Assembly: GCA_905214225.1 (NCBI GenBank) | Contig: CAJMLL010000027.1 | Location: 1 to 33,647 of the forward strand | Direction: 5' to 3' | Origin: an uncultured bacterium | GTDB taxonomy: Bacteria; Bacillota; Clostridia; Peptostreptococcales; Anaerovoracaceae | DNA: 33,647 nucleotides | Shown here: positions 61 to 24,606 of the stretch, piece by piece | How positions within the stretch are numbered: position 1 is the first letter of the stretch | Layout: the number at the start of each line of letters is the position of its first letter | Notes under the pieces: generated by a model | Database searches by the model: none | What the model saw: only the letters and a program-made list of their open reading frames with translations | Told to the model about the DNA's origin: nothing | Translations under genes and position numbers: made by a program

Positions 61-82
61 GGATTGTTTCTGTTTTCAGGCG

Positions 83-142
83 ATCCTCCGACCCAATAAA
101 TTTCCTGTCGGAGAATGCGCCAATTTCCCGTATAGCGGGAAA
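83..142. repeat. two small hairpins, member of the hairpin-repeat family
   Basis: The first hairpin pairs ATCCTCCGAC (83-92) with GTCGGAGAAT (107-116), with one mismatch and a 14-nt loop. The stem is nearly the same as the one at 10163-10198. The second pairs TTTCCCG (124-130) with CGGGAAA (136-142). They sit directly next to the insertion-sequence-like terminus. The rest of 143-485 shows no gene. Confidence 0.6.
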
Positions 143-8848: not shown

Positions 8849-8853
8849 AAGGG

Positions 8854-9250
8854 AGGTTTCCGAGTGAAAAAAGAAAATCCGAAACCTGAGGATTGTTTTT
8901 ATAGGATAGTTTCGCCAGGTTTGGGAATCGGATGTCGGAACCGCTGATTATATTGAAGTGGTTGGTTTCCGAAGTTTCGAAATGGAGTTCGGAAACCTCC
9001 TTTGTAATTGAAATAATTGGAAAGGGAGGGCTTCCGGAATAACAGCATGCAAATCCGGAAGCCTTTATTATATGAGAGATGAGGAGAAGGAGGATTCCCG
9101 CCGGTCTGGTAATGAAAGGCGGGAATCAGGTGATTGTTCAGAAGGAGGGTTTCCGAGTATTAAATTGGGAATCGGAAACCATAGGATTGTATTAAAAGGA
9201 GGATTCCCGCCAGGGGTGACGTGCAGCGAGAATCTGATGTTATCTGCGGT
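8854..9250. repeat. hairpin array 1a (TTCC-type stems preceded by GGAGG)
   Basis: Clear hairpins are: 8854-8887 (AGGTTTC/GAAACCT with a C-C mismatch inside), 8964-8997 (GGTTTCCGAA/TTCGGAAACC, loop 14), 9029-9063 (GGCTTCCGGA/TCCGGAAGCC, loop 15), 9093-9127 (GATTCCCGCC/GGCGGGAATC, loop 15) and 9148-9180 (GGTTTCCGA/TCGGAAACC, loop 15). A degenerate one starts at about 9202. Most left arms follow a GGAGG block. Stem sequences differ while base pairing is kept. No protein is encoded; open frames across it are just the repeats being read through. Confidence 0.8.
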
Positions 9251-9307
9251 TGAGGGAAAATATAAACACCGCAGCTGTGAGAAGATGAAGAAAGCATGAG
9301 TAAACCG

Positions 9308-9882
9308 GTATACTGTATACGTACGTGTATGTTACAATTGCCTTTTTCGGATAAGCAGGAAAAAGATAACTATCCGAAAGAGAAGAATAAAGATCGGATA
9401 GGCGCGGATGCCATTGAAATGGATAATCGAAAAGGATTAAGTTGATGGTAAATAGTAGATCTGCATATTTATTCTTATATACAAATATTTATCGGATGCT
9501 GACCTCGGGAAATAACATAATAATCACGATTTCCCGAGGATATTTTTCAGGTACTCGGGAAATTGATGTTAAAGAAGTGAATTCCCGAGGCCGGTCCGGT
9601 GAAAGAGTTCGGGAATAGAGGCAAAATAGATCAGATTTCCGAACTTTGTGTTCTGCTGTTCGGGAATCCGGTGATAAAAGGGGCAATTGCCGAAGAACAC
9701 AGGAAATAGTGTGTATAAATTAATACATTTTAGCGAAGTGCTTGCTGCCGATTATATTCATCGTATTCATCTTTCGCTGAAATGCTGTTTCAGCTCGGGA
9801 ATCTCATGATTATATGCGATTTCCCGAGGATCGATTTATTAAGCTCGGGAAATCAGCTGTTTTGGGTGAAATTCCCGAGCTT
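9308..9882. repeat. hairpin array 1b (alternating CTCGGGAA / TTCCCGAG arms)
   Basis: The block opens with the palindrome GTATACTGTATAC (9308-9320). Hairpins: 9345-9379 (TTTCGGATA/TATCCGAAA), 9503-9539 (CCTCGGGAAAT/ATTTCCCGAGG), 9554-9589 (CTCGGGAA/TTCCCGAG), 9581-9616 (ATTCCCGA/TCGGGAAT, sharing its left arm with the previous hairpin), 9634-9668 (GATTTCCGAAC/GTTCGGGAATC with one G-T pair), 9794-9828 and 9841-9882 (AAGCTCGGGAA/TTCCCGAGCTT). Loops are mostly 13-20 nt. Confidence 0.8.
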
Positions 9883-10125
9883 CGGCAGTTGAAAGACCGG
9901 CAGGAAAAGATGTACTTGCGTATACTGCACATTGTATACCTAAACTATCCCCCGTTACTTGTATAATCATATTTCCGACGCGCCAGGCATCAGGATCGTC
10001 GGAAATAACCACACAGAGAAGCATGCAGGCTGAGCAGAGTGAGGGATACTGCACACTGTATACCCTGGGCTTTTTCCCCCTGCCAAGTCCGCCCGTTACC
10101 TATACCAAATAATTTCCGACGCGCC
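9579..10125 (+). repeat. 547-bp direct repeat, copy 1
   Basis: By base-by-base reading this block is identical to 17234-17780 (offset 7655). Similarity continues at lower identity upstream, where array landmarks at 9093, 9308 and 9345 match 16785, 16979 and 17016. It contains hairpins of arrays 1b and 1c and two GTATAC pairs (9920-9939 and 10047-10063). It encodes no recognisable protein. Confidence 0.9.
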
Positions 10126-10350
10126 AGGCATTAGAATCGTCGGAAATCACCGCACAGAGGCGGATTCTCCGACAGGAATTTTATAGAGTCGGAGAATCGC
10201 GAGAAAGGAAGAAATTTCCGACGCGCAGGCATCAGAATCGTCGGAAATCACCGCCAGAAAGCAGATTCTCCGACAGAGATTTTAAAGGGTCGGAGAATCG
10301 CGAGAAAGGAAGAAATTCCCGACGCGCCAGGCATCAGAACCGTCGGAAAT
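9971..10350. repeat. hairpin array 1c with about 101-bp tandem units
   Basis: ATTTCCGACG/CGTCGGAAAT hairpins lie at 9971-10006, 10112-10147 and 10214-10248, with a variant (one C-A mismatch) at 10315-10350. GATTCTCCGAC/GTCGGAGAATC hairpins lie at 10163-10198 and 10264-10299. The two types alternate, giving direct units starting at 10112, 10214 and 10315, a period of 101-102 bp. The array ends about 15 bp from the stop codon of the ferredoxin gene. Confidence 0.85.
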
Positions 10351-10364
10351 AACCACCTGATTAT

Positions 10365-10703
10365 TTATTTTTGACGGATCACCGGAACGAATTTACTCTG
10401 GTTGATCAGGGGGTGCTGAAGGCGGATGGCGCCTTCGATCGGGCATTCCATGACGCAGGCGCCGCAGTACATGCATTCACCCGGGTACATGACGATTGGA
10501 TGCCGGCCTTTTTCCTGGGAAGGGACGAGGAGGTCGCACTGGCAGGCTCTGGCGCAGCTGTTGCAGCCGATGCAGAGGCTGTCGTCAAAGTGCAGGGGTC
10601 GGGCGCTGCAGGGAACGGTGCTGGCGGTCAGTTCTTTTCCCTCAATATTCTTGAGGGTTTCTGATTTATCTGTTGTTTTGTTCTGTTTGATTGTGTTATT
10701 CAT
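10365..10703 (-). CDS. 4Fe-4S dicluster ferredoxin-like protein (redox partner of the adjacent flavoprotein)
   Basis: This 112-residue protein carries two ferredoxin cysteine motifs: Cys44, 47, 50, 54 (CIGCNSCARAC) and Cys77, 80, 83, 87 (CMYCGACVMECP). That is enough for two 4Fe-4S clusters. An extra Cys56 follows the first motif. The roughly 30-residue N-terminal tail is polar, and no signal peptide is seen, so it is probably cytoplasmic. Its start overlaps the end of the upstream flavoprotein gene by 8 bp, which indicates translational coupling and a two-subunit enzyme. The pairing resembles AprBA (adenylylsulfate reductase) in architecture, but no sulfur-pathway genes (sat, qmo, dsr) are nearby, so electron transfer to or from an unidentified substrate is all that can be said. 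Confidence 0.85.
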   Translation of the reverse strand: MNNTIKQNKTTDKSETLKNIEGKELTASTVPCSARPLHFDDSLCIGCNSCARACQCDLLVPSQEKGRHPIVMYPGECMYCGACVMECPIEGAIRLQHPLINQSKFVPVIRQK

Positions 10704-12684
10704 AGTATTTCACCGCCTCCCGGATGTAGTCCTGGTTGCAGCTTTCGTAGGACTGTTCGATGTCGCCGTAGTAGTCCAAGGGAATTTCACCGCGGACCGC
10801 TTTGCCGTCTTCTTTGTGTATGGTGATGAAGGCGCGGTCTTTCTGCGGGTCTTCTTCTGGGAAGTCGCTTCGCTTGAAATGAAGTGGCTCGGAGCTGGAA
10901 TGGCGCATTCTGCAGGCTTCCAGGATCATTTCTGATACGTCGAGGATATCGAGAACTTCATGGATACGCATAAGGTCATGCGGATTTTCTGCGTGAAGCT
11001 GCGGGACGGCATCTTCGCGGTAGTTGTGGAGGAGATCCAGTCCCTGAAGGAGAAGGTCTTCACACTTGATTTCTCCGCAGTAGTTCTGCATACATTTGGA
11101 AATAGCGAAGTTCAGTTCTTTCCAGCTCATATCGCCGTCACTCGTCATCGGGGACAGGAGGCGGCGCTGTTCATCGGCGCACTGTTTCTGAAGGTCGGTG
11201 TCCCGCTGGAATTCCTGTTCGTCGAGAAGGGAAGCGGCGGTTGTGCCGGCTTGTTCCGCAGCATAGTCGGCTGCTTTTCTGCCTGCGTAGTATCCGGTTG
11301 CGGACGCGGCGCCGCCGCAGTCCATGGCGAAGAGCTGGTCGCCGCCGGCAAATACACCATTTACGCTGGTCATCAGGTCCCAGTCGGTGATGATTCCGCC
11401 TGGCGCGCCGAAGAGCTGGCGTTCCTGGCCGAGGAAGTCGCCGGACTTCCAGCCGTTTCCATAGCTCTGGAGCATGTCTTTTTCCGGATCAAAGCCCTTT
11501 TCTGTGTAATACTGAAGAACCGGAACTTTGGTCCGTCCTTCTTCTCCGACCATCATGCCCCAGATGACGCGACGCTCGTCTTCCGGCATTCTGCTGAGAT
11601 CGGCATAGAATGGCAGTTTGTAGCCGCGTTTCATCAGCTCATCGAATGGCATGGTTTCAGGCCCTCTGTATTCATATTTTGGATTGTCGATGACGCCGCC
11701 TTTGAGGAAAAATTTCTGTCCCGGGGCAGGGCGGAAACGGTCGTCGACGTTTTCCAGGACCTTACCGTCTCGGTCGAGGTATGGAATTTCCATGCCTCTG
11801 GCATCTACCATGGTCGCGCCGTACCAGGTATTATGGTTGTTTCCGGTGCTGTAAGGCGGAAAACTTCTTCCGGCGGCGGAAAACTCACCGCGGACGGATT
11901 TTTCCATCATGGTGAAGGTCACGCCGGAGCGGAATCCCATGGCGTGGCCGCTGCCGATGCTGTTCATCGGGCGGAATTCACACAGTCCAGGAAGGTCGGA
12001 GCTGAAGAGCCAGACTCTTGCCGGGCGGGACATGGCCAGAACCGTGGATTTCGAAGAAACTGTGATGAAGCGTCCGGTGTGGACATTCATTCCGCAGGCG
12101 CCGACGCCGATTTTCTTCTTGCCTTTTGATTTTGTCAGAAGGGCAGTGGCTTCTGTGCGGTCCAGAATCTTCACGCCCAGCCGCAGGCATTCTTTATAGA
12201 GGGCAGGCTTGAATCCGCTTCCCCAGATCCTGAGTGTGTAGCGGTTAGTGTAGTCGTAGGCGTACATCAGTTTCGTTTGGTCGTCACGGAATGCGGCACC
12301 CTTGAATTCATCCTCCGTGTCGCGGATTTTTCCGCCGAACTGCTCGATGTCCAGGAGCCGGTCCCAGCCCTCGCGGCATTCGATGTAGTGGGCGATGCCG
12401 TTGCTGTAATGATCCTGCTCGTTGATGTAAGCTTCCGCAACTTCCTTAGGAGTGAGGAGGCAGCCCGGATTGGTGCAGGCGGACTCCCAGTGGTCGAAGC
12501 CGCTTCCCGCCGAACCTGCGCGGGCGGTCGTGCCTTTTTCCATCAGAATGACCTTCTGGCCTTTTCTGGCTGCGGCAATCGCTGCGAAAGTTCCTGCAAG
12601 ACCGCCGCCGAGAACCAGCACGTCGCAGGTCAGATGCTGCGATGCTCCGATTTCGTTGGGATAGGGCCATTTATACTGAGTCAT
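10696..12684 (-). CDS. FAD-dependent oxidoreductase, fumarate reductase / AprA-like flavoprotein
   Basis: The 662-residue flavoprotein belongs to the succinate dehydrogenase/fumarate reductase/adenylylsulfate reductase A superfamily. The dinucleotide motif GGGLAG is at residues 26-31, followed by VILMEKG at the end of the second strand. A late FAD-binding block (GVFAGGDQLFAMDCGGAASATGY) and a helical C-terminal domain follow. The overall layout and the coupled ferredoxin downstream resemble AprA, but the substrate cannot be read from the sequence. No twin-arginine signal is present, so it is probably cytoplasmic. ATG 12684 has an AAAGGGGG site; a longer start at 12762 is less likely. A GntR/FCD regulator is divergent upstream. 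The operon lies inside the segment bracketed by the duplicated hairpin arrays. Confidence 0.85.
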   Translation of the reverse strand: MTQYKWPYPNEIGASQHLTCDVLVLGGGLAGTFAAIAAARKGQKVILMEKGTTARAGSAGSGFDHWESACTNPGCLLTPKEVAEAYINEQDHYSNGIAHYIECREGWDRLLDIEQFGGKIRDTEDEFKGAAFRDDQTKLMYAYDYTNRYTLRIWGSGFKPALYKECLRLGVKILDRTEATALLTKSKGKKKIGVGACGMNVHTGRFITVSSKSTVLAMSRPARVWLFSSDLPGLCEFRPMNSIGSGHAMGFRSGVTFTMMEKSVRGEFSAAGRSFPPYSTGNNHNTWYGATMVDARGMEIPYLDRDGKVLENVDDRFRPAPGQKFFLKGGVIDNPKYEYRGPETMPFDELMKRGYKLPFYADLSRMPEDERRVIWGMMVGEEGRTKVPVLQYYTEKGFDPEKDMLQSYGNGWKSGDFLGQERQLFGAPGGIITDWDLMTSVNGVFAGGDQLFAMDCGGAASATGYYAGRKAADYAAEQAGTTAASLLDEQEFQRDTDLQKQCADEQRRLLSPMTSDGDMSWKELNFAISKCMQNYCGEIKCEDLLLQGLDLLHNYREDAVPQLHAENPHDLMRIHEVLDILDVSEMILEACRMRHSSSEPLHFKRSDFPEEDPQKDRAFITIHKEDGKAVRGEIPLDYYGDIEQSYESCNQDYIREAVKYYE

Positions 12685-13121
12685 ATTCTTTTCCCCCTTT
12701 CGATGAGGTTTGTGACAAAATTCAAACAGCAAGTCTATCCCGCCTTGTATTCGTCCAGGCATAACAAATGGGTCTTCAGTCAGTGGTTTTCCGGCATCTC
12801 TCTCGTTACCCGGACAGGCAGGCGTAAACTTTTGTTATTTCTTATCTTACCACCATATTATGCAAAATGCAAAATACATTTAATTCTGATAACAATATGT
12901 TTTAAAGACGGTTTTACCTTGCTGATCCCGGTGCCTGAATGCGTTTTGTCCAGAAAATGCGTGATCCTGAAATCCGGAAAGCCGCGGCAGAAAAGATGAG
13001 TGTAAGGGGATGTAACGATTATTACGGAATACGGTTGTAAACAGAATTGTGAAAGTGTTAAGATATACACATCGTTTTACAGGATACATCGTAATATCGC
13101 TGCACGGAGGCAGGACAGGCA
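12685..13121. promoter_or_regulatory. divergent control region of the flavoprotein operon and gntR-type gene
   Basis: No gene is present. For the minus-strand operon, TTAAAT (complement of 12878-12883) and TAATAT (complement of 12855-12860) are 17 bp apart, and the spacer holds a direct repeat of ATTTTGC that could be an operator. For the plus-strand regulator, TTGTAA (13035-13040) and TAAGAT (13059-13064) are 18 bp apart. Both promoters are imperfect matches. Confidence 0.4.
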
Positions 13122-13763
13122 ATGAACGGACAGATAAAAACAGTTACGGAACAGATTTACCAGGAAATACGCAATGCTATCATCAGACAAGAAATTGCTC
13201 CTGGGGAGAAACTGACGATCAAGATGCTGCATGAGCGCTATGGTGTCAGTTCATCGCCGATCCGGGAGGCTCTGACCCGTCTGCAGCAGGATGGTCTGAT
13301 TGTTTACCGGCCGAATATCGGTATGCGGGTGGTTCAGCTGAATCGGAAGGATGTTGAGGAGATTTACGATATGATCACCGAACTGGATTCCGCGGCCATG
13401 CGCTTTGCCATGAGAAAGTCCGATGCGGACGCCTGCCTCAAAGATCTGCGTGAGATTCAGCAGGAGATGGAGAGTACGCAGGATTTTCAGCGCTGGCAGA
13501 AGCTCAGTGACGATTTCCACCAGATTTTCTATAAGTACGCGGATAACAGCCGGCTGAACGACGCCTCCCGCAGGATTCTGCTGCAGCTGACGATCTTATC
13601 CATGCAGTACGAGCAGAAAGAAGAAAACCGCGAAGAGATCGCTCAGGGCCACCAGAAAATTCTGGACGCCCTGACAAAAGGCAGTCTGCAAGAGGCCGAC
13701 CAGCTCCTCCGCGAGCACCTGGATGCATCCAGGCAGAAGGCACTGGCTGCGATTGGAGAATAG
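13122..13763 (+). CDS. GntR family transcriptional regulator, FCD domain
   Basis: A 213-residue regulator. The N-terminal winged helix-turn-helix of GntR type (residues about 10-75; ERYGVSSSPIREALTRLQQDGL is the recognition region) is followed by an all-helical FCD ligand-binding domain. The residues that usually bind a metal in FCD proteins are present: Asp in MITELD, His in DDFHQIFY, His in QGHQKIL and His in REHLDA. Members commonly repress operons for organic-acid or sugar-acid catabolism and release DNA on binding a carboxylate. It is divergent from the flavoprotein-ferredoxin operon, its likely target. GGAGG lies 11 nt before the ATG, and a strong terminator follows. Confidence 0.9.
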   Translation: MNGQIKTVTEQIYQEIRNAIIRQEIAPGEKLTIKMLHERYGVSSSPIREALTRLQQDGLIVYRPNIGMRVVQLNRKDVEEIYDMITELDSAAMRFAMRKSDADACLKDLREIQQEMESTQDFQRWQKLSDDFHQIFYKYADNSRLNDASRRILLQLTILSMQYEQKEENREEIAQGHQKILDALTKGSLQEADQLLREHLDASRQKALAAIGE

Positions 13764-13798
13764 CAGCAGGGCAGATTCTGGTTTGATGAATATTGAAG

Positions 13799-13850
13799 GG
13801 CGCTGCACGATGCTGGTCAGAACATCGTGCAGCGCCTTTAACAATTTTAG
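13799..13850 (+). terminator. intrinsic terminator after the gntR-type gene
   Basis: GGCGCTGCACGATG (13799-13812) pairs perfectly with CATCGTGCAGCGCC (13823-13836) around a 10-nt loop, followed by TTTAACAATTTT. It lies between two convergent genes and could serve both. Confidence 0.8.
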
Positions 13851-13913
13851 AAATATTTTCCGGATATTTCCGGAGTTATTATGATATCCTGGCGGCTGAC
13901 TTCTTCTGTTTTC

Positions 13914-14936
13914 CTACCACTCTTCCTCAAAACGGAATGTCCGGAAGGCGTAGCGGTCAATCAGCTGAATGGCGGCTTCCAGATCGGATTTCGCAATGAC
14001 GGAGCTCTGGCTGTGCGGGAAACGGTCGATAATGGAAATTCCCGCTACGCGCACGCCCCAGCCGGACTGGTTGATGCTGCTGGCGTCTGTGCCGCCTCTG
14101 TCCATGACATCACGCTGATAGGAGATATTGTTTTCTTTACAGCAGGCGAGCATTTCGTCCACCAGATATTCGTCAAGCATAGCGGATGGATTTCCGATGG
14201 TGACCCCGACGCCGTTTCCGACCGCATTGGCACCTTTCAGGTCGTTCGGCAGATAGTGGTCCGGTGAGACATCGACGGAAATTCCGATGTCCGGGCGGAT
14301 TCTCTCTGCGGCAGCGACGGCGCCGCGGCATCCGACTTCTTCCTGAACCGTGAAGACGTAATATACATCGTTCGGGGAAGTTCCGTCATTCATTTTCAGC
14401 GCTTCGATCAGGGCAAAACAGCCTGCCCGGTCGTCGAAGGTCTTGGCGGTGATTCTGCCATTTGCCATTTCATGCCAGGCGCCGATGAATCCGCAGTAGT
14501 CGCCGACCCTTACGTACTTTTCTGTGTCTTCCTTCGATGTGCAGCCGATATCGATGTAGAGCTCCTGTGCGCGGTTTTTCGATTCCTCCACTGGAATGTC
14601 GCAGCCGACTACACCGATCGTGCCGTTCTGGAATACGACTTTATCGTTGTAGGCTGAGCAGGTCCAGGTCCAGCCGACGGTGCAGACTTTGATTCTTCCA
14701 TCGGATTCGATGTGGGTAACCTGCAGGCCGATTTCATCCATATGAGCCGCGTACATGATTTTCTTTTTGTCTGGAGAATCCTTTCCGCGTTTCAGAACGA
14801 TCAGATTCCCCAGAGCATCCGTAAGCATCTTGTCCGCATAAGGACGGACCGCCTCGCGGATCAGACTGCGGACACGTTTTTCTCTTCCTGACACACCCCA
14901 GGTCTGGGTGAGCGTTTTCAGAACTTCAACATCCAT
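13914..14936 (-). CDS. M42 family aminopeptidase
   Basis: The 340-residue product is a zinc/cobalt-dependent M42 (glutamyl aminopeptidase / PepA-Tet type) metallopeptidase, a cytoplasmic exopeptidase that usually forms dodecamers and digests oligopeptides. Metal-ligand and catalytic motifs are visible: AHMDEIG (His65, Asp67), TFDDRAGC with the bridging Asp, TVQEEVGCRG with the catalytic Glu pair, SVDVSPD, and a late FPHSQ His. ATG 14936 is preceded by AGGAGG at 8-nt spacing; an in-frame TTG two codons upstream is less likely. A good promoter lies at 15008-15036 on the minus strand. It sits between gntR and the GPH transporter but is transcribed apart from both. Confidence 0.92.
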   Translation of the reverse strand: MDVEVLKTLTQTWGVSGREKRVRSLIREAVRPYADKMLTDALGNLIVLKRGKDSPDKKKIMYAAHMDEIGLQVTHIESDGRIKVCTVGWTWTCSAYNDKVVFQNGTIGVVGCDIPVEESKNRAQELYIDIGCTSKEDTEKYVRVGDYCGFIGAWHEMANGRITAKTFDDRAGCFALIEALKMNDGTSPNDVYYVFTVQEEVGCRGAVAAAERIRPDIGISVDVSPDHYLPNDLKGANAVGNGVGVTIGNPSAMLDEYLVDEMLACCKENNISYQRDVMDRGGTDASSINQSGWGVRVAGISIIDRFPHSQSSVIAKSDLEAAIQLIDRYAFRTFRFEEEW

Positions 14937-15007
14937 AATCAATTCCTCCTGTTATAAAATTCCGTATATTGCCTCGATTGTTCATGGGGATGGTTTGATT
15001 TCTTCCT

Positions 15008-15036
15008 ATCGTAGCAGATTAATGTGTATTTTTCAA
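15008..15036 (-). promoter_or_regulatory. promoter for the M42 peptidase gene
   Basis: On the minus strand TTGAAA (complement of 15031-15036) and TACGAT (complement of 15008-15013) are separated by 17 bp. Confidence 0.55.
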
Positions 15037-15059
15037 TGGATTCAAAAATATATTGTGAC

Positions 15060-15087
15060 TTGACAACAAAAAAGCAAAATGTATAAT
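15060..15087 (+). promoter_or_regulatory. promoter for the GPH symporter gene
   Basis: Perfect consensus hexamers TTGACA (15060-15065) and TATAAT (15082-15087) are 16 bp apart. Just downstream is the 13-bp palindrome CGATTATTAATCG (15121-15133), with an additional CGATTAT at 15107-15113. This is a plausible repressor site in the early transcribed region. Confidence 0.8.
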
Positions 15088-15160
15088 TAGAATTAAATAC
15101 AATATTCGATTATGCATTTTCGATTATTAATCGGTTATCAATTTCTCAAAGGGGGATAAC

Positions 15161-16678
15161 ATGGACAAGGACATTAGTAGAGGCGCCGGAGAAACTGCAG
15201 ACAGTATCGGCACTTCAGAAGTCACTGCTGAAATGAGTACCGCTGCAGCTGTAAAAAGCAGCGGGTCAGCTGGAGGAGTCGGAGGAAATGAAGGAAAAGT
15301 TCCCGTAAAATTAAAGTTCGCTTTCAGCGTCGGAGAATTCAGTAAAGCAACACTTCAGATACTGAACGCATATTTCCTTCTCTGGTTTTACACCGATGTT
15401 GCCAAAATTCCGGCAGCAGCGGCAACGATCATCATGGTTATTGCTAAAGTCTGGGATGCGATTAATGACCCGATGATGGGCGTCATTCTGGATAAGACCA
15501 GATCAAAAGAAGGACGCTGCCGTTTCTGGCTGAAATATCTGTCCGTACCTGCAGGTGTATTCATCATCCTCAGCTATACGGCTCCGGGACTCAGCAAAAA
15601 CGGCCTGATTATCTGGGTCGGCATCACCTACATCTGCCAGGGCATGGCGCAGACCATCACCAACGTCCCGTTTAACACTCTCCTGGCCAGAATCACCTCA
15701 AACCGTGACGAGCGAGTCAGAATCGGCCAGTGGCAGGGAATTGGCTCCACCATCGCCAGCACCGTGATAACCGCCAGCGCCATTCCAATCGTAAAATGGA
15801 TCGGCCACGGCGACCAGACCAAGGGTTTCTTCGCCTTCGCAGTTGGCTGCGGCATGATTTACACCGCTGGATTCTTGTTCGTTTATTTTGCCAGCAAGGG
15901 CTATGAACCGACCTACGATCAGGAAGCTCCGATCATCAACAAGGAAAAGCACAGTGTCGGCTCTCTGGTCAAGGCTGTTCTCTGCAACAAGTATGCGCTG
16001 CTGGTGTGCCTGATTAATATCTTTTTCCTGATTTACAACTCTCTGAACGGAACATCCATGATGTACTACTTAAAGTATGACCTCCATGATACAGGCCTGA
16101 TGAGCGTCTACTCCGTGCTGACCTCCGTGATCAGCTTTGCCGCCGTCGGCGCCATGGGAGTTATGGGCCGCAAGTTCGGAAATTCCAAGACCTGCGCGCT
16201 CGCCTGTCTGATGCTGGTCTTCAGTTTTGGCACGCGTTTCCTGACCCACGACAGCATCCGTGTCGTCCTGTACATCTGCTGGGGTGTTGAGGGAATCGGA
16301 ACCGGCCTGTTCGCTTCTATGATTTACCAGTGTGCACTGGACGCCATGACTTACGGAAAGTGGAAGACCGGCATCGACAACCAGGGAACCATCATGTCTG
16401 TCTACACCTTCGCCCAGAAAGTCGGCCTCGCCGTCGGCGGCGTTATCTGCAGCGGACTCCTGGCCGCCTTCCATTACCATGGCGGCGCCGCAACACAGAG
16501 TGCAGTCATTCAGCGCCTCTTCTTTGCAGAAATTGTAACTATTCCGGTGATCATCTTCATCGGCCTCTTCTTCCTGTTCATGTATCTTTCCACATATGAG
16601 CGCGAACTCCCGCGCATGAGGAAAGAGATTGCAGAACGCGAGAAAGCCGAAGGCATTGCCAGCCCGATCGTCGAGTAG
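15161..16678 (+). CDS. GPH-type (glycoside-pentoside-hexuronide) cation symporter, MFS superfamily
   Basis: The 505-residue polytopic membrane protein has about twelve hydrophobic segments. It carries the GPH signature after the second helix: KVWDAINDPMMGVILDKTRSK, where the Asp-rich DAxNDP motif binds the coupling cation in melibiose-permease relatives. Family members import sugars, glycosides or uronides with Na+ or H+. The substrate cannot be told. The first 50 residues are a Ser/Ala/Gly-rich cytoplasmic extension longer than usual. ATG 15161 follows GGGGGAT. A near-perfect promoter and a palindromic operator candidate precede it. It lies inside the segment bracketed by duplicated hairpin arrays with the flavoprotein operon and the M42 peptidase; no glycosidase is nearby. 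Confidence 0.88.
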   Translation: MDKDISRGAGETADSIGTSEVTAEMSTAAAVKSSGSAGGVGGNEGKVPVKLKFAFSVGEFSKATLQILNAYFLLWFYTDVAKIPAAAATIIMVIAKVWDAINDPMMGVILDKTRSKEGRCRFWLKYLSVPAGVFIILSYTAPGLSKNGLIIWVGITYICQGMAQTITNVPFNTLLARITSNRDERVRIGQWQGIGSTIASTVITASAIPIVKWIGHGDQTKGFFAFAVGCGMIYTAGFLFVYFASKGYEPTYDQEAPIINKEKHSVGSLVKAVLCNKYALLVCLINIFFLIYNSLNGTSMMYYLKYDLHDTGLMSVYSVLTSVISFAAVGAMGVMGRKFGNSKTCALACLMLVFSFGTRFLTHDSIRVVLYICWGVEGIGTGLFASMIYQCALDAMTYGKWKTGIDNQGTIMSVYTFAQKVGLAVGGVICSGLLAAFHYHGGAATQSAVIQRLFFAEIVTIPVIIFIGLFFLFMYLSTYERELPRMRKEIAEREKAEGIASPIVE

Positions 16679-16732
16679 TCCCTCCGGCCTTCCAGTGGAC
16701 AAAATCCACCCGGCAAGAAGACTGCCTGGAAT

Positions 16733-16773
16733 GGCGCCCGCCAGACTGTGTAATGCAGAAGGCGGGCGCCTTT
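16733..16773 (+). terminator. terminator-like hairpin after the GPH symporter
   Basis: GGCGCCCGCC (16733-16742) pairs perfectly with GGCGGGCGCC (16761-16770), loop 18 nt, followed by only TTT. The geometry (10-bp stem, long loop) is that of the hairpin family in the array that starts next to it, so it may be both. Confidence 0.6.
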
Positions 16774-16784
16774 GATAACCCTGG

Positions 16785-17810
16785 GATTCCCGCCAGTCTG
16801 GTGATGAGAGGCGGGAATCTGATGATTTCTCGAAATGGAGGGTTTCTGCCCGGCTGGAAGTGTGGGGCAGAAACCCTCTGATCCCTGCCTCTGGAAGAGT
16901 AAGGGGGAGAGTCCAGAGGCAGGTGTTGTTGTCCCTCCGGGAGAGTGGCTTTCTGTGGAAGGAAAGATGTAATAGAAGGTATACTGTATACATTTTTGTG
17001 CGTTGTGGGTGATTATTTCGGATGAGCGTTAAATGGGCTGCCTATCCGAAAGATGTTATTGTACTGGATAATCAAAGTGGGCAAAGTTTATGTAATATAG
17101 TAAATGGTGCGTGATGTGTATATACATTCGTAAAATTGCATTTATATTAATTGCCGGCCTCGTGAATTAAAATAATAATCACGATTTCCCGAGAATATTT
17201 TTCAGGTGCTCGGGAAATTGATATTAAAGAGGGGAATTCCCGAGGCCGGTCCGGTGAAAGAGTTCGGGAATAGAGGCAAAATAGATCAGATTTCCGAACT
17301 TTGTGTTCTGCTGTTCGGGAATCCGGTGATAAAAGGGGCAATTGCCGAAGAACACAGGAAATAGTGTGTATAAATTAATACATTTTAGCGAAGTGCTTGC
17401 TGCCGATTATATTCATCGTATTCATCTTTCGCTGAAATGCTGTTTCAGCTCGGGAATCTCATGATTATATGCGATTTCCCGAGGATCGATTTATTAAGCT
17501 CGGGAAATCAGCTGTTTTGGGTGAAATTCCCGAGCTTCGGCAGTTGAAAGACCGGCAGGAAAAGATGTACTTGCGTATACTGCACATTGTATACCTAAAC
17601 TATCCCCCGTTACTTGTATAATCATATTTCCGACGCGCCAGGCATCAGGATCGTCGGAAATAACCACACAGAGAAGCATGCAGGCTGAGCAGAGTGAGGG
17701 ATACTGCACACTGTATACCCTGGGCTTTTTCCCCCTGCCAAGTCCGCCCGTTACCTATACCAAATAATTTCCGACGCGCCGTGTCTCATAACCGTCGGAA
17801 ATCACCACAC
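16785..17810. repeat. hairpin array 2, paralogue of array 1
   Basis: Hairpins: 16785-16819 (GATTCCCGCC/GGCGGGAATC, loop 15, closely matching 9093-9127 in stem and loop), 16838-16878 (14-bp stem GAGGGTTTCTGCCC/GGGCAGAAACCCTC), 16885-16922 (CTGCCTCTGGA/TCCAGAGGCAG) and 17016-17051 (TTTCGGAT/ATCCGAAA). The alternating CTCGGGAA/TTCCCGAG series of array 1 follows. The palindrome GTATACTGTATAC is at 16979-16991. The left arm matching 9503-9513 is decayed here, showing erosion in one copy. No gene is present between 16679 and 17965. Confidence 0.8.
17234..17780 (+). repeat. 547-bp direct repeat, copy 2
   Basis: Identical to 9579-10125 by direct reading. Just upstream, three small differences appear within 30 bp and similarity then falls. 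Downstream the copies diverge abruptly inside a hairpin loop, although the closing stem arm is kept. Confidence 0.9.
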
Positions 17811-17887
17811 AGAGACGGATTCTTGGCGGGGAATTTTTGTCGGACAGAAATTTACAGAATCTTCACGGCGCGGACGGGCGGGCCGGA

Positions 17888-17916
17888 TTGCAAACGGGCC
17901 GGGCATATGATAAAAT
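17888..17916 (+). promoter_or_regulatory. promoter for the DUF1292 gene
   Basis: TTGCAA (17888-17893) and TAAAAT (17911-17916) are 17 bp apart, about 50 bp before the start codon. Confidence 0.65.
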
Positions 17917-17965
17917 CTCATTAAATGAGTTAGATCAGCGTTGCAATGATCGAATGGAGGAAATT

Positions 17966-20290: not shown

Positions 20291-20382
20291 GCATTATACG
20301 GATAAATTGAAAAGTAAGGCGAAATAAGATTGCGGTATACAGTATACCTAAATATCCTTCAACCACTGAATTCTGGCAAAAG

Positions 20383-22901: not shown

Positions 22902-23396
22902 ATGAAAAACAGAAAAGTATTATTCTTAACACAGGCTGGCCTGATTGCGGCGGTGTATGTTGTGCTCACCGTGTTGCTGCAGGCCTTCAGCTTTGGTCAG
23001 GTGCAGATCCGGGTTGCGGAGATGCTGACTATTCTTCCAGTATTTACTCCGGCGGCAGTTCCGGGCCTTTTCCTGGGCTGTCTGATTGGAAATATTGCCG
23101 GTGGGGCCGTGCTTCCGGATGTGATCTGCGGAAGTCTGGCTACTCTTGCCGGAGCTTTCTTTACGTATAAACTGAGGAACCGCGGACTGATTATCGCCTG
23201 CCTTCCTCCGATCATTGCCAATATCCTGGTTGTCCCATTCGTTCTGAAGTATGCATATGGAATGTCTTTCCCGATTCCGCTTATGATGGTGACGGTCGGC
23301 ATCGGTGAAGTCGTCGGATGCGGCGTTCTGGGCGTAACCCTGGGAAAGGTACTGAAACGCTATAAAAGCGTGATTTTCGGCAGTCTGACGGCGTAG
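22902..23396 (+). CDS. queT: QueT-type queuosine precursor transporter
   Basis: A 164-residue, five- to six-helix integral membrane protein of the QueT family, the substrate-binding S component of an ECF-type importer for preQ1 or a related queuosine precursor. The conserved LTQAGLIAAVYVVLTVLL start, the QVQIRVAEMLTILPVF segment and GLFLGCLIGNIAGG are typical. It works with the shared ECF energising module (not in this window). ATG 22902 lies directly after the preQ1-I riboswitch, an independent confirmation of substrate. The gene appears to be alone in its transcript; an 18-bp hairpin lies about 185 bp downstream. Confidence 0.92.
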   Translation: MKNRKVLFLTQAGLIAAVYVVLTVLLQAFSFGQVQIRVAEMLTILPVFTPAAVPGLFLGCLIGNIAGGAVLPDVICGSLATLAGAFFTYKLRNRGLIIACLPPIIANILVVPFVLKYAYGMSFPIPLMMVTVGIGEVVGCGVLGVTLGKVLKRYKSVIFGSLTA

Positions 23397-23580
23397 CGGA
23401 GTTTGAGACAGAACAGCTTATATATGGCGGAGATCGTGTTTCAGATACCTTATGAAGGATATTGTTTCTTGACGCCAGGTGAAGAAATTCTGACTTCCCA
23501 CGCCGAAACAGCAGAACGGCAATTTGAAAAATAGATATTTGACGATAACATACAAATAGAAGAGATTATGAAGGTTTGAA

Positions 23581-23627
23581 GCGGGGCTCTGTCCAGGTGA
23601 ACACTTGTTACCTGGACAGGGCCCCGC
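23581..23627. repeat. 18-bp perfect hairpin downstream of queT
   Basis: GCGGGGCTCTGTCCAGGT (23581-23598) pairs over all 18 positions (one G-T) with 23610-23627 around an 11-nt loop. No clear T-run follows (TCGTTT), so a distal queT terminator is possible but not certain. It also stands at the head of hairpin array 3. Confidence 0.7.
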
Positions 23628-23658
23628 TCGTTTCAGAGCAGATTTGTCTTGCTGGAAT

Positions 23659-24181
23659 TCGGGAAAATCTTCCAATACGGCCTGTTTCCCGACTTCGATT
23701 TTTTGGGGTCGGGAAAATCAATGATTATAGATGTTTTCCCGACTCGGGCTGGAATAAATTGAACTAGATAACATGCAAAATAAATATGCATAATGATATT
23801 AGTATATATATTCACATGTCTTGTATAATAATCGCGGTTAATAAACATAACGAGACAAACGCGGACGATGGAGCAAAATGATTTTGATCCCCGGGTCTCC
23901 TGTTTTCGGAAGATCTTCCAAAAGGGGCATTTTCCCGAACTTTTCACATATGAGAAGTCGGGAAACAGATACCTATGGGAAGATTTCCCGACTGCCAGCT
24001 GCACAGAGTCGGGAAACTCTGGCTATTGGGTGATTTTCCCGAACGATCTCAGGCATTTTGTATTGAAATCAGTGTAATATTCAGTGCATAAGTATATTAT
24101 ATACAGAAATGGGCGTTTTTCTTCGGGGAACTCCATTCACTCACGGATTGACGTAGTGTCAATTTGTTCTGACGTCAATCC
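23659..24181. repeat. hairpin array 3 (regular alternating TCGGGAAA / TTTCCCGA arms)
   Basis: First series of arms: 23659 (TCGGGAAA), 23685 (TTTCCCGAC), 23708 (GTCGGGAAAA), 23734 (TTTTCCCGAC). Second series: 23930 (TTTTCCCGAAC), 23957 (GTCGGGAAAC), 23984 (TTTCCCGAC), 24008 (GTCGGGAAA), 24034 (TTTTCCCGAAC). Arms alternate in orientation with start-to-start spacing of 23-27 bp, so each inner arm can pair with either neighbour. A final hairpin, GGATTGACGT (24145-24154) with ACGTCAATCC (24172-24181), has the same geometry but an unrelated stem. No gene is seen in 23397-24530. Confidence 0.85.
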
Positions 24182-24262
24182 ATCCTGGAGCTAGTTCAGA
24201 TTCGTTACAGCCTGTCATTATACCCATTCATATATTAGTCTGCAGCAAATGCTGTTGTTATC

Positions 24263-24275
24263 GTATACTGTATAC
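24263..24275. repeat. 13-bp palindrome GTATACTGTATAC
   Basis: Exact copy of the motif also at 9308-9320 and 16979-16991, and as its complement form GTATACAGTATAC at 20335-20347. All four are intergenic and close to hairpin arrays or hairpins. Confidence 0.85.
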
Positions 24276-24309
24276 AGTACCAATCTATCTTTTGCCAGTA
24301 TTTCTGTTT

Positions 24310-24461
24310 GGCCTGCACCTTCACTCTGCCTGAAAGTCCGGGCTGCTGGCCTGCACCTTCACTCTGCCTGAAAGTCCGGGCTGCTGGCCTGCGCCCTCAC
24401 TCTGCCTGAAAGTCCGGGCTGCTGGCCTGCGCCCTCACTTTGTCTGTAAGTCTGGGCTGCT
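24310..24461 (+). repeat. 38-bp tandem repeat, four units
   Basis: Units start at 24310, 24348, 24386 and 24424, each beginning GGCCTGC and ending GGGCTGCT. Units 1 and 2 are identical, unit 3 differs by two bases, and unit 4 carries several further changes. The repeat lies between hairpin array 3 and the tRNA-Pro terminator. No frame across it looks like a protein. Confidence 0.92.
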
Positions 24462-24493
24462 GCAGCTTCAAATTACATGAGATAAAAAGACAT

Positions 24494-24530: not shown

Positions 24531-24606
24531 TGGTCGGAGTGATGAGACTCGAACTCATGGCCTCTGCGTCCCGAACGCAGCGCGCTACCAACTGCGCCAC
24601 ACCCCG
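24531..24606 (-). tRNA. tRNA-Pro (anticodon CGG)
   Basis: A 76-nt tRNA on the minus strand. Acceptor CGGGGTG pairs with CACTCCG (one G-T), then A and an encoded CCA. The D-arm GGCGCAGTTGGTAGCGC, anticodon stem CTGCG/CGCAG around the loop TTCGGGA (anticodon CGG, reading CCG) and T-arm GAGTTCGAGTC are all present. Confidence 0.97.

Follow-up and report, generated by a model that had tools for sequence, protein, structure and literature searches.

Intergenic arrays of alternating inverted repeats, candidate landing pads for mobile DNA, in an uncultured Anaerovoracaceae bacterium and its closest sampled relative

Several types of short inverted repeats have been described in bacterial genomes. 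The arrays known as NIMEs in Neisseria are intergenic, extend over 200-2700 bp and are targeted by a phage; their dRS3 element has the form ATTCCC-N8-GGGAAT, one type of which phage Nf1 uses as its target (PMC3898611). NIME arrays also flank pilC1, and the repeats have been proposed as the site of its integration or deletion (PMC3898611). REP elements and BIMEs are extragenic palindromes that alternate in orientation and form mosaic arrays (PMC2817692), with REP stems of 5-13 bp and REP loops that range overall from 2 to 20 bp (PMC3733652). Extragenic palindromes can themselves be insertion sites, as described for IS1397, ISKpn1, IS621 and ISPpu9, which belong to the IS3, IS110, and other families (PMC1525189). 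Hairpin-forming repeats are also found in mitochondrial genomes, in sponges within long intergenic regions (PMC2800124, PMC7218506). The titles and abstract openings in one literature collection made no mention of the array family described below.

Here we analyzed a stretch of 33,647 nucleotides (the window) from an uncultured bacterium of the family Anaerovoracaceae, with particular attention to an array (W3; Table 1) that is flanked by queT (22902-23396, + strand) and a tRNA-Pro gene (24531-24606, - strand). The initial annotation had described a regular array of alternately inverted arms at 23659-24044, and this description was borne out; exact 8-mers start at 23659(+), 23685(-), 23709(+), 23735(-), 23931(-), 23958(+), 23984(-), 24009(+), and 24035(-), and the starts given earlier are correct to within one base. 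Core-to-core steps from TCGGGAA to TTCCCGA measure 26-27 bp and the steps back 23-27 bp (24 bp in four of seven), which gives a unit of 50-54 bp. The degenerate tenth arm was spotted by eye, having been missed by the arm scan, and the AT-rich piece in the middle of the array is possibly an insertion or its remnant. In W1 and W3 taken together, the base pair adjoining the core is Watson-Crick in 9/11 plus-to-minus and 5/7 minus-to-plus neighbors, in agreement with the earlier claim that each inner arm can pair with the arm before or after it; the two pairings are about equally good. Classification as a CRISPR array was rejected, as it had been at the outset, since the arms alternate in orientation, whereas a CRISPR array has direct repeats of identical sequence and unique spacers of uniform length. 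A 38-bp tandem repeat (4.1 copies, 94% matches) adjoins W3 on its right, at 24309-24462.

Table 1. Coordinates of array-related and insertion-related features in the window.
Feature	Position	Strand	Description
Inverted copy of a hairpin	74..121	-	85% identical copy of hairpin 10159-10206; left edge of window
Insertion, 9 kb	8849..17885		Between uvrC and presumed DUF1292-like gene; insertion relative to sister L001 and most relatives measured
Four inverted repeats	8964..9180		Arms 9-10, loops 14-15; arms differ, mutually complementary
Direct repeat, left member	9407..10182	+	About 790 bp, 92% identical to right member; contains W1
Array W1	9503..9882		Twelve alternating arms of TCGGGAAA type (two with one mismatch)
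W1 middle piece	9695..9794		100 bp; interrupts the W1 chain in a TTTCCC-to-GGGAAA place
Inverted repeats TTTCCGACG/CGTCGGAAA and GATTCTCCGAC/GTCGGAGAATC	9970..10334		Partly a 101-bp two-hairpin tandem repeat
Cargo	10365..16678		Ferredoxin-type protein, FAD protein, GntR/FCD regulator, M42 peptidase, MFS transporter
Four inverted repeats after MFS gene	16733..16923		Arms 10-14, loops 13-18
Direct repeat, right member	17052..17837	+	About 790 bp, 92% identical to left member; contains W2
Array W2	17160..17537		Second copy of W1, arm order identical
Array W3	23659..24042		Nine exact TCGGGAAA/TTTCCCGA arms that alternate; unit about 50 bp
W3 middle piece	23744..23904		AT-rich; where a TTTCCC-to-GGGAAA gap would be
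Tenth W3 arm	23906..23912	+	Degenerate, two mismatches in 7-mer core; occupies the expected place

The initial annotation had raised the prospects that shuffled sequence might yield similar chains and that the array might be restricted to this one locus, neither of which was found. Alternating TCGGGAA/TTCCCGA links at 20-30 bp numbered 20, compared to a mean of 0.005 and a maximum of 1 when the whole window was shuffled by dinucleotides 200 times and to 0 when the three intergenic array zones were shuffled alone (1000 times), and chains of the same arms were identified in W1 and W2. When inverted repeats were counted with a minimum arm of 9 bp and a loop of 13-18, the window had 24, compared to a shuffle mean of 0.64 and a maximum of 4 (200 dinucleotide shuffles). 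Of the 31 window inverted repeats found with a minimum arm of 8 and loops of 12-20, 30 fall in the three zones, which are each 1.1-1.5 kb long and mix inverted and other repeats; in two of them (8849-10364 and 16679-17930), TCGGGAAA chains are found together with other inverted repeats that have different arms and similar loops. GTATAC palindromes, single or as GTATAC-N8-GTATAC, were observed beside arrays at 9308-9320, 9920-9939, 10044-10063, 16979-16991, 17575-17594, 17699-17718, and 24263-24275, as well as at 20335-20347, outside the three zones; the arrays of the related genome described next contain GGATACTGTATACC and TATACCCCTATAGGGTATA.

The closest relative in the genome collection is uncultured Eubacteriaceae bacterium UMB00019 (L001; hereafter the sister), with a UvrC that is 89% identical; its 2.6 Mb were sampled as 1.3 Mb, with some overlap and partly picked for containing matches, so that we give no array densities. 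Contigs with a UvrC of 96-100% identity also exist. Across the initial 396 kb of the sister, which comprised the starts of 19 contigs and one contig in full, the loop lengths of inverted repeats peaked at 13-17, with 54 repeats compared to 6 in one Markov shuffle. Two families were distinguished. The E1 family comprises GC-rich hairpins in mosaic arrangement, with as many as 12 in succession; one 1,061-base probe gave 134 matches. In the E2 family, TTTTCCCA and TGGGAAAA arms alternate; it has at least 25 copies, including some truncated where a contig ends, and one copy sits in the queT-tRNA-Pro spacer of the sister, which is orthologous to the spacer that holds W3 (1.48 kb vs. 1.1 kb). Arrays in the sister extend over up to about 2.3 kb. 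Hairpin-packed, ORF-poor stretches of about 1.5-2.3 kb were observed at L126:6445-7971, L134:16261-18555, and L115:80-1798, with two linker types (CAATC-like and CACC-like, as judged by eye) alternating between the hairpins.

The gaps between E2 arms are nearly invariant. When full arms were required and each overlapping stretch was entered only once, the TTTTCCCA-to-TGGGAAAA gap is 16 bp in 10/10 cases (8-26 bp searched) and the TGGGAAAA-to-TTTTCCCA gap is 18 bp in 8/8 (8-36 bp searched); with arms relaxed to 7 bases (1-60 bp searched), the values are 16 bp in 15/17 and, for the reverse gap, 20 bp in 19/24, the latter representing the same place as the 18 bp between full arms. In the window, gaps between 7-base cores, searched within 60 bp, are 19-20 bp in 11/11 cases from TCGGGAA to TTCCCGA and 16-20 bp in 9/9 cases in reverse (17 bp in five). 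The unit is thus 50 bp in the sister and about 50 bp (50-54) in the window, while its internal division differs. Arm spacing, whose conservation in relatives had been named initially as a point to check, is therefore kept in E2, even though the arm letters differ and the array DNA does not align. The near-invariance of the E2 gaps is partly due to descent, the copies being those of one element; together with the TTTCCC arms kept in 25 copies and the orthologous placement, it nevertheless suggests a constraint.

Compared to NIMEs, the present arrays are alike in being intergenic, in combining many short inverted repeats with variable filler, and in their TTTCCC/GGGAAA arms, which resemble ATTCCC/GGGAAT; they differ in having gaps of 13-20 bp instead of the 8 bp of dRS3, a regular 50-bp alternating unit, a putatively mobile IS-like repeat, and a host in another phylum. 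As in NIMEs, arrays of hundreds to thousands of bp that mix inverted and other repeats lie between genes in both the window and the sister. The arms may also serve a mobile element as target, as suggested in the sister only, where 12/22 junctions of a repeat that is known by its ends lie 8 or 11 bp from an arm. The window contains no exact match to the dRS3 core ATTCCC-N8-GGGAAT; six matches were found when 1-2 mismatches were allowed (shuffle mean, 1.9; 0/100 shuffles reached six). With REP elements and BIMEs the present repeats share an extragenic location and alternating orientation, and they differ in having loops near the upper limit of those in REP elements, many families of which have loops of 2-3 bp. 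A GTAG/CGTC tag within 6 nt of the stem was found in 0/30 window repeats and in 8/344 repeats of the sister sample, which includes some overlapping sequence, and a RAYT gene (Y1_Tnp, PF01797) was found in 0/6 relatives, including the sister, compared to 5/14 control genomes. Membership in the REP family was rejected on account of the missing tag and the lack of a RAYT in the sister, and the arrays were placed outside both REP/BIME and NIME because of these results and the lack of an exact dRS3 core. Mitochondrial double-hairpin and repetitive hairpin elements also consist of hairpin-forming repeats, but are organellar, and the openings of the abstracts do not mention an alternating arm register. 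We read the arrays as NIME- or BIME-like intergenic mosaics that are kept apart from both and whose arms would mark sites of insertion. The initial statement that no named element has this design was thus too strong, given that neisserial NIME arrays (PMC3898611) and enterobacterial BIMEs come close to it.

Many contigs of the sister terminate in one repeat that contains an inner inverted repeat; the end sequence occurs 25 times, near contig ends, and would presumably represent the ends of a transposon, which may resemble those of the IS3 family. This IS-like repeat is known from its ends, with one side seen per junction, and 22 distinct flanks were examined, 16 of which match E1 or E2 arrays and six of which match no array; selection against insertions in genes could account for part of this enrichment. 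Twelve of the 22 junctions lie exactly 8 bp (seven cases) or 11 bp (five cases) before a GGGAA-type core, with the qualification that core and offsets were picked after the flanks had been viewed, and the other 10 junctions lie at neither offset, one of them at 12 bp. By comparison, 362 of 38,600 positions (0.9%) in E2 copies have an 8- or 11-bp offset, and 16 random E2 positions for which the two best offsets were freely chosen gave 2.0 on average and at most 4 (5000 draws). Since 11 + 8 - 16 = 3, the two offsets fit an insertion at the center of the 16-bp gap with a 3-bp duplication, and we infer that the repeat inserts in this way. The repeat would thereby resemble the REP-targeting IS in entering extragenic palindromes; it would differ from them in its predicted target, one exact position within the 16 bp that separate TTTCCCA and TGGGAAA arms. 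A transposase search of the sister yielded one rve-type gene, which is not near any listed IS-like end; the transposase of the repeat is absent from the sister contigs searched, hence no IS family is named. The end sequence occurs in no viral contig and, outside the sister, gave only two matches, each with 3 mismatches, among the 149 genomes searched. No junction of this kind was seen in the window. Both pieces that break the arm chains of W1 and W3 occupy TTTCCC-to-GGGAAA places, the type targeted in the sister; as a sign of insertion at such gaps, these two independent cases are only suggestive. The IS-like end repeat (at G001 contig ends, e.g., L111:1-53) itself holds an inverted repeat with arms of 12 and a loop of 17, a geometry that matches the arrays.

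Between uvrC and the gene that follows it, the two members of the direct repeat that carry W1 and W2 bracket the inserted genes. In the sister, uvrC runs straight into sequence that matches the window from 17886 onward, at a gene that is presumably DUF1292-like. The gap from uvrC to the next gene, computed for 21 of 80 uvrC loci as the distance to that gene's match, is 6-181 bp in 18 relatives and 432, 1497, and 9544 bp in the other three, compared to 9.1 kb in the window. The FAD protein of the cargo was found in 1/41 genomes searched at E 1e-30 and is absent from the sister. The reading frames scanned within the insertion include no transposase, and the island could have entered through ordinary recombination.

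We give roughly even chances to the reading that W3 is one copy of a dispersed, non-coding intergenic family of inverted repeats that serves as a landing pad for mobile DNA. The observations behind it are the arrays themselves, their recurrence in the window and the sister, the near-invariant gaps, the IS-like junctions in the sister, and the bracketed 9-kb insertion. A transposase-type enzyme would be predicted to recognize two facing TTTCCC/GGGAAA arms, which would themselves be what the enzyme reads, and mobile DNA would be inserted midway between them. Arrays may persist as insertions there would do no harm, and recombination between array copies may allow cargo genes to come and go. More tentatively, it is possible that this lineage of anaerobic Firmicutes keeps dedicated docking arrays, in which TTTCCC/GGGAAA arms face each other in a fixed 50-bp register and their midpoint is a transposase address, with mobile elements and entire gene cassettes entering at safe intergenic sites, and in which arm sequences drift while the geometry is held, target and enzyme forming a coevolving lock and key that is renewed between sister species. 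If true, the arrays would be a natural series of insertion addresses beyond the REP/RAYT and Neisseria systems and would help to account for the entry of large cargo into compact genomes without gene disruption; they would also provide an example of a DNA element whose geometry is retained between sister species after its sequence has diverged. Target recognition is directly testable since the insertion point is predicted with single-base precision.

While the landing-pad reading is the most likely of those considered, its main rivals are use of the arms by a host protein and neutral upkeep by templated correction. According to the former, which we consider unlikely, the arms are ordinary sites in duplex DNA at which a dimeric host protein, either nucleoid-associated or regulatory, binds and polymerizes along 50-bp units, and the IS only exploits the bound protein or bent DNA. 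The arms of the right E2 hairpin are kept as sequence without covariation, with one pair changed on both sides compared to a shuffle mean of 1.2, and the almost invariant gaps, the unit of about 50 bp common to two species, and the GTATAC palindromes that accompany the arrays also favor such a protein. The left E2 hairpin, however, shows some covariation (six pairs changed on both sides; shuffle mean, 2.3), so that the evidence for the TTTCCC arms is mixed; a 50-bp unit does not correspond to an integral number of helical turns of 10.5 bp, and the GC-rich arms change in step, which a sequence-reading protein would not need. The initial suggestion that the array could be read by a dimeric protein fits the sister in its near-invariant gaps and its conserved right-hairpin arms.

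The second rival, to which we likewise assign a low probability, holds that the arrays are selfish or neutral repeats without function, built and kept by slippage, recombination and templated correction of the arms (quasi-palindrome correction). It is favored by the fact that the arrays are mosaics of shared modules and by their fast turnover. At E 0.01, alignment of the window zones to the sampled 1.3 Mb of sister sequence was confined to two stretches, of 25 and 37 bp, the longer one at the tRNA; no match was found for 9458-9890 in 61 genomes including the sister, for 9407-10364 in plasmids, or for 23580-24200 in phages. In other searches, three-arm patterns had no matches in viral contigs or in the sister, and the two-arm pattern TTTCCSGA showed no excess (17/149 relatives vs. 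32/149 for a reversed-pattern control), the sister locus L088 alone being informative among its matches. The 79 other uvrC loci (1.4 Mb) showed no loop peak like that of the window, with 10-23 inverted repeats at each loop length of 13-18 and 17 at each of 10-12. A further point in favor of neutral upkeep is that GC-rich E1 arms exchange Watson-Crick pairs for other Watson-Crick pairs and show few G-U states. Among the 60 of 91 seed hairpins that had enough copies, 215/262 two-sided changes were Watson-Crick, a count in which seeds overlap and cells are not independent. In three E1 stem families, selected from those with many two-sided changes, 21, 18, and 15 cells changed on both sides, values that none of 500 shuffles reached in any of the three (means, 4.7, 7.4, and 4.1). 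A stricter measure, less affected by relatedness, is the number of pairs with changes on both sides; it was 6 (0/500 shuffles), 4 (138/500), and 3 (104/500), exceeding shuffles in one family only. Based on the E1 and E2 results, the TTTCCC arms look to be conserved mainly as sequence and the GC-rich arms more as structure. Against neutrality stand the near-invariant gaps, the TTTCCC arms conserved in 25 copies, and the orthologous placement, which suggest a constraint.

That the arrays are transcribed and act as structured RNA (mRNA 3' stabilizers, attenuators, or non-coding RNA) appears very improbable, since strong single-strand folding (z -3.2 to -5.5 in four window stretches, DNA parameters) and the covariation of related stems are set against nearly equal G-U and A-C states in E1 (144 vs. 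128 one-sided cells; four mismatches each in another count), which argue against selection on RNA, Rfam matches at the gathering threshold to tRNAs only in the window and five sister loci, no promoter excess in the two array zones scanned, and the location of arrays between convergent, tandem and, by open-frame calls alone, divergent genes. For the same reasons of G-U usage in this related hairpin family and of Rfam content, regulation through the mutually exclusive hairpins mentioned initially found no support, and assignment to a known structured RNA was rejected.

A further species-specific difference was observed beside tRNA-Leu, where the sister carries about 4.2 kb (L001 9826-14078) compared to 288 bp between the matching places in the window.
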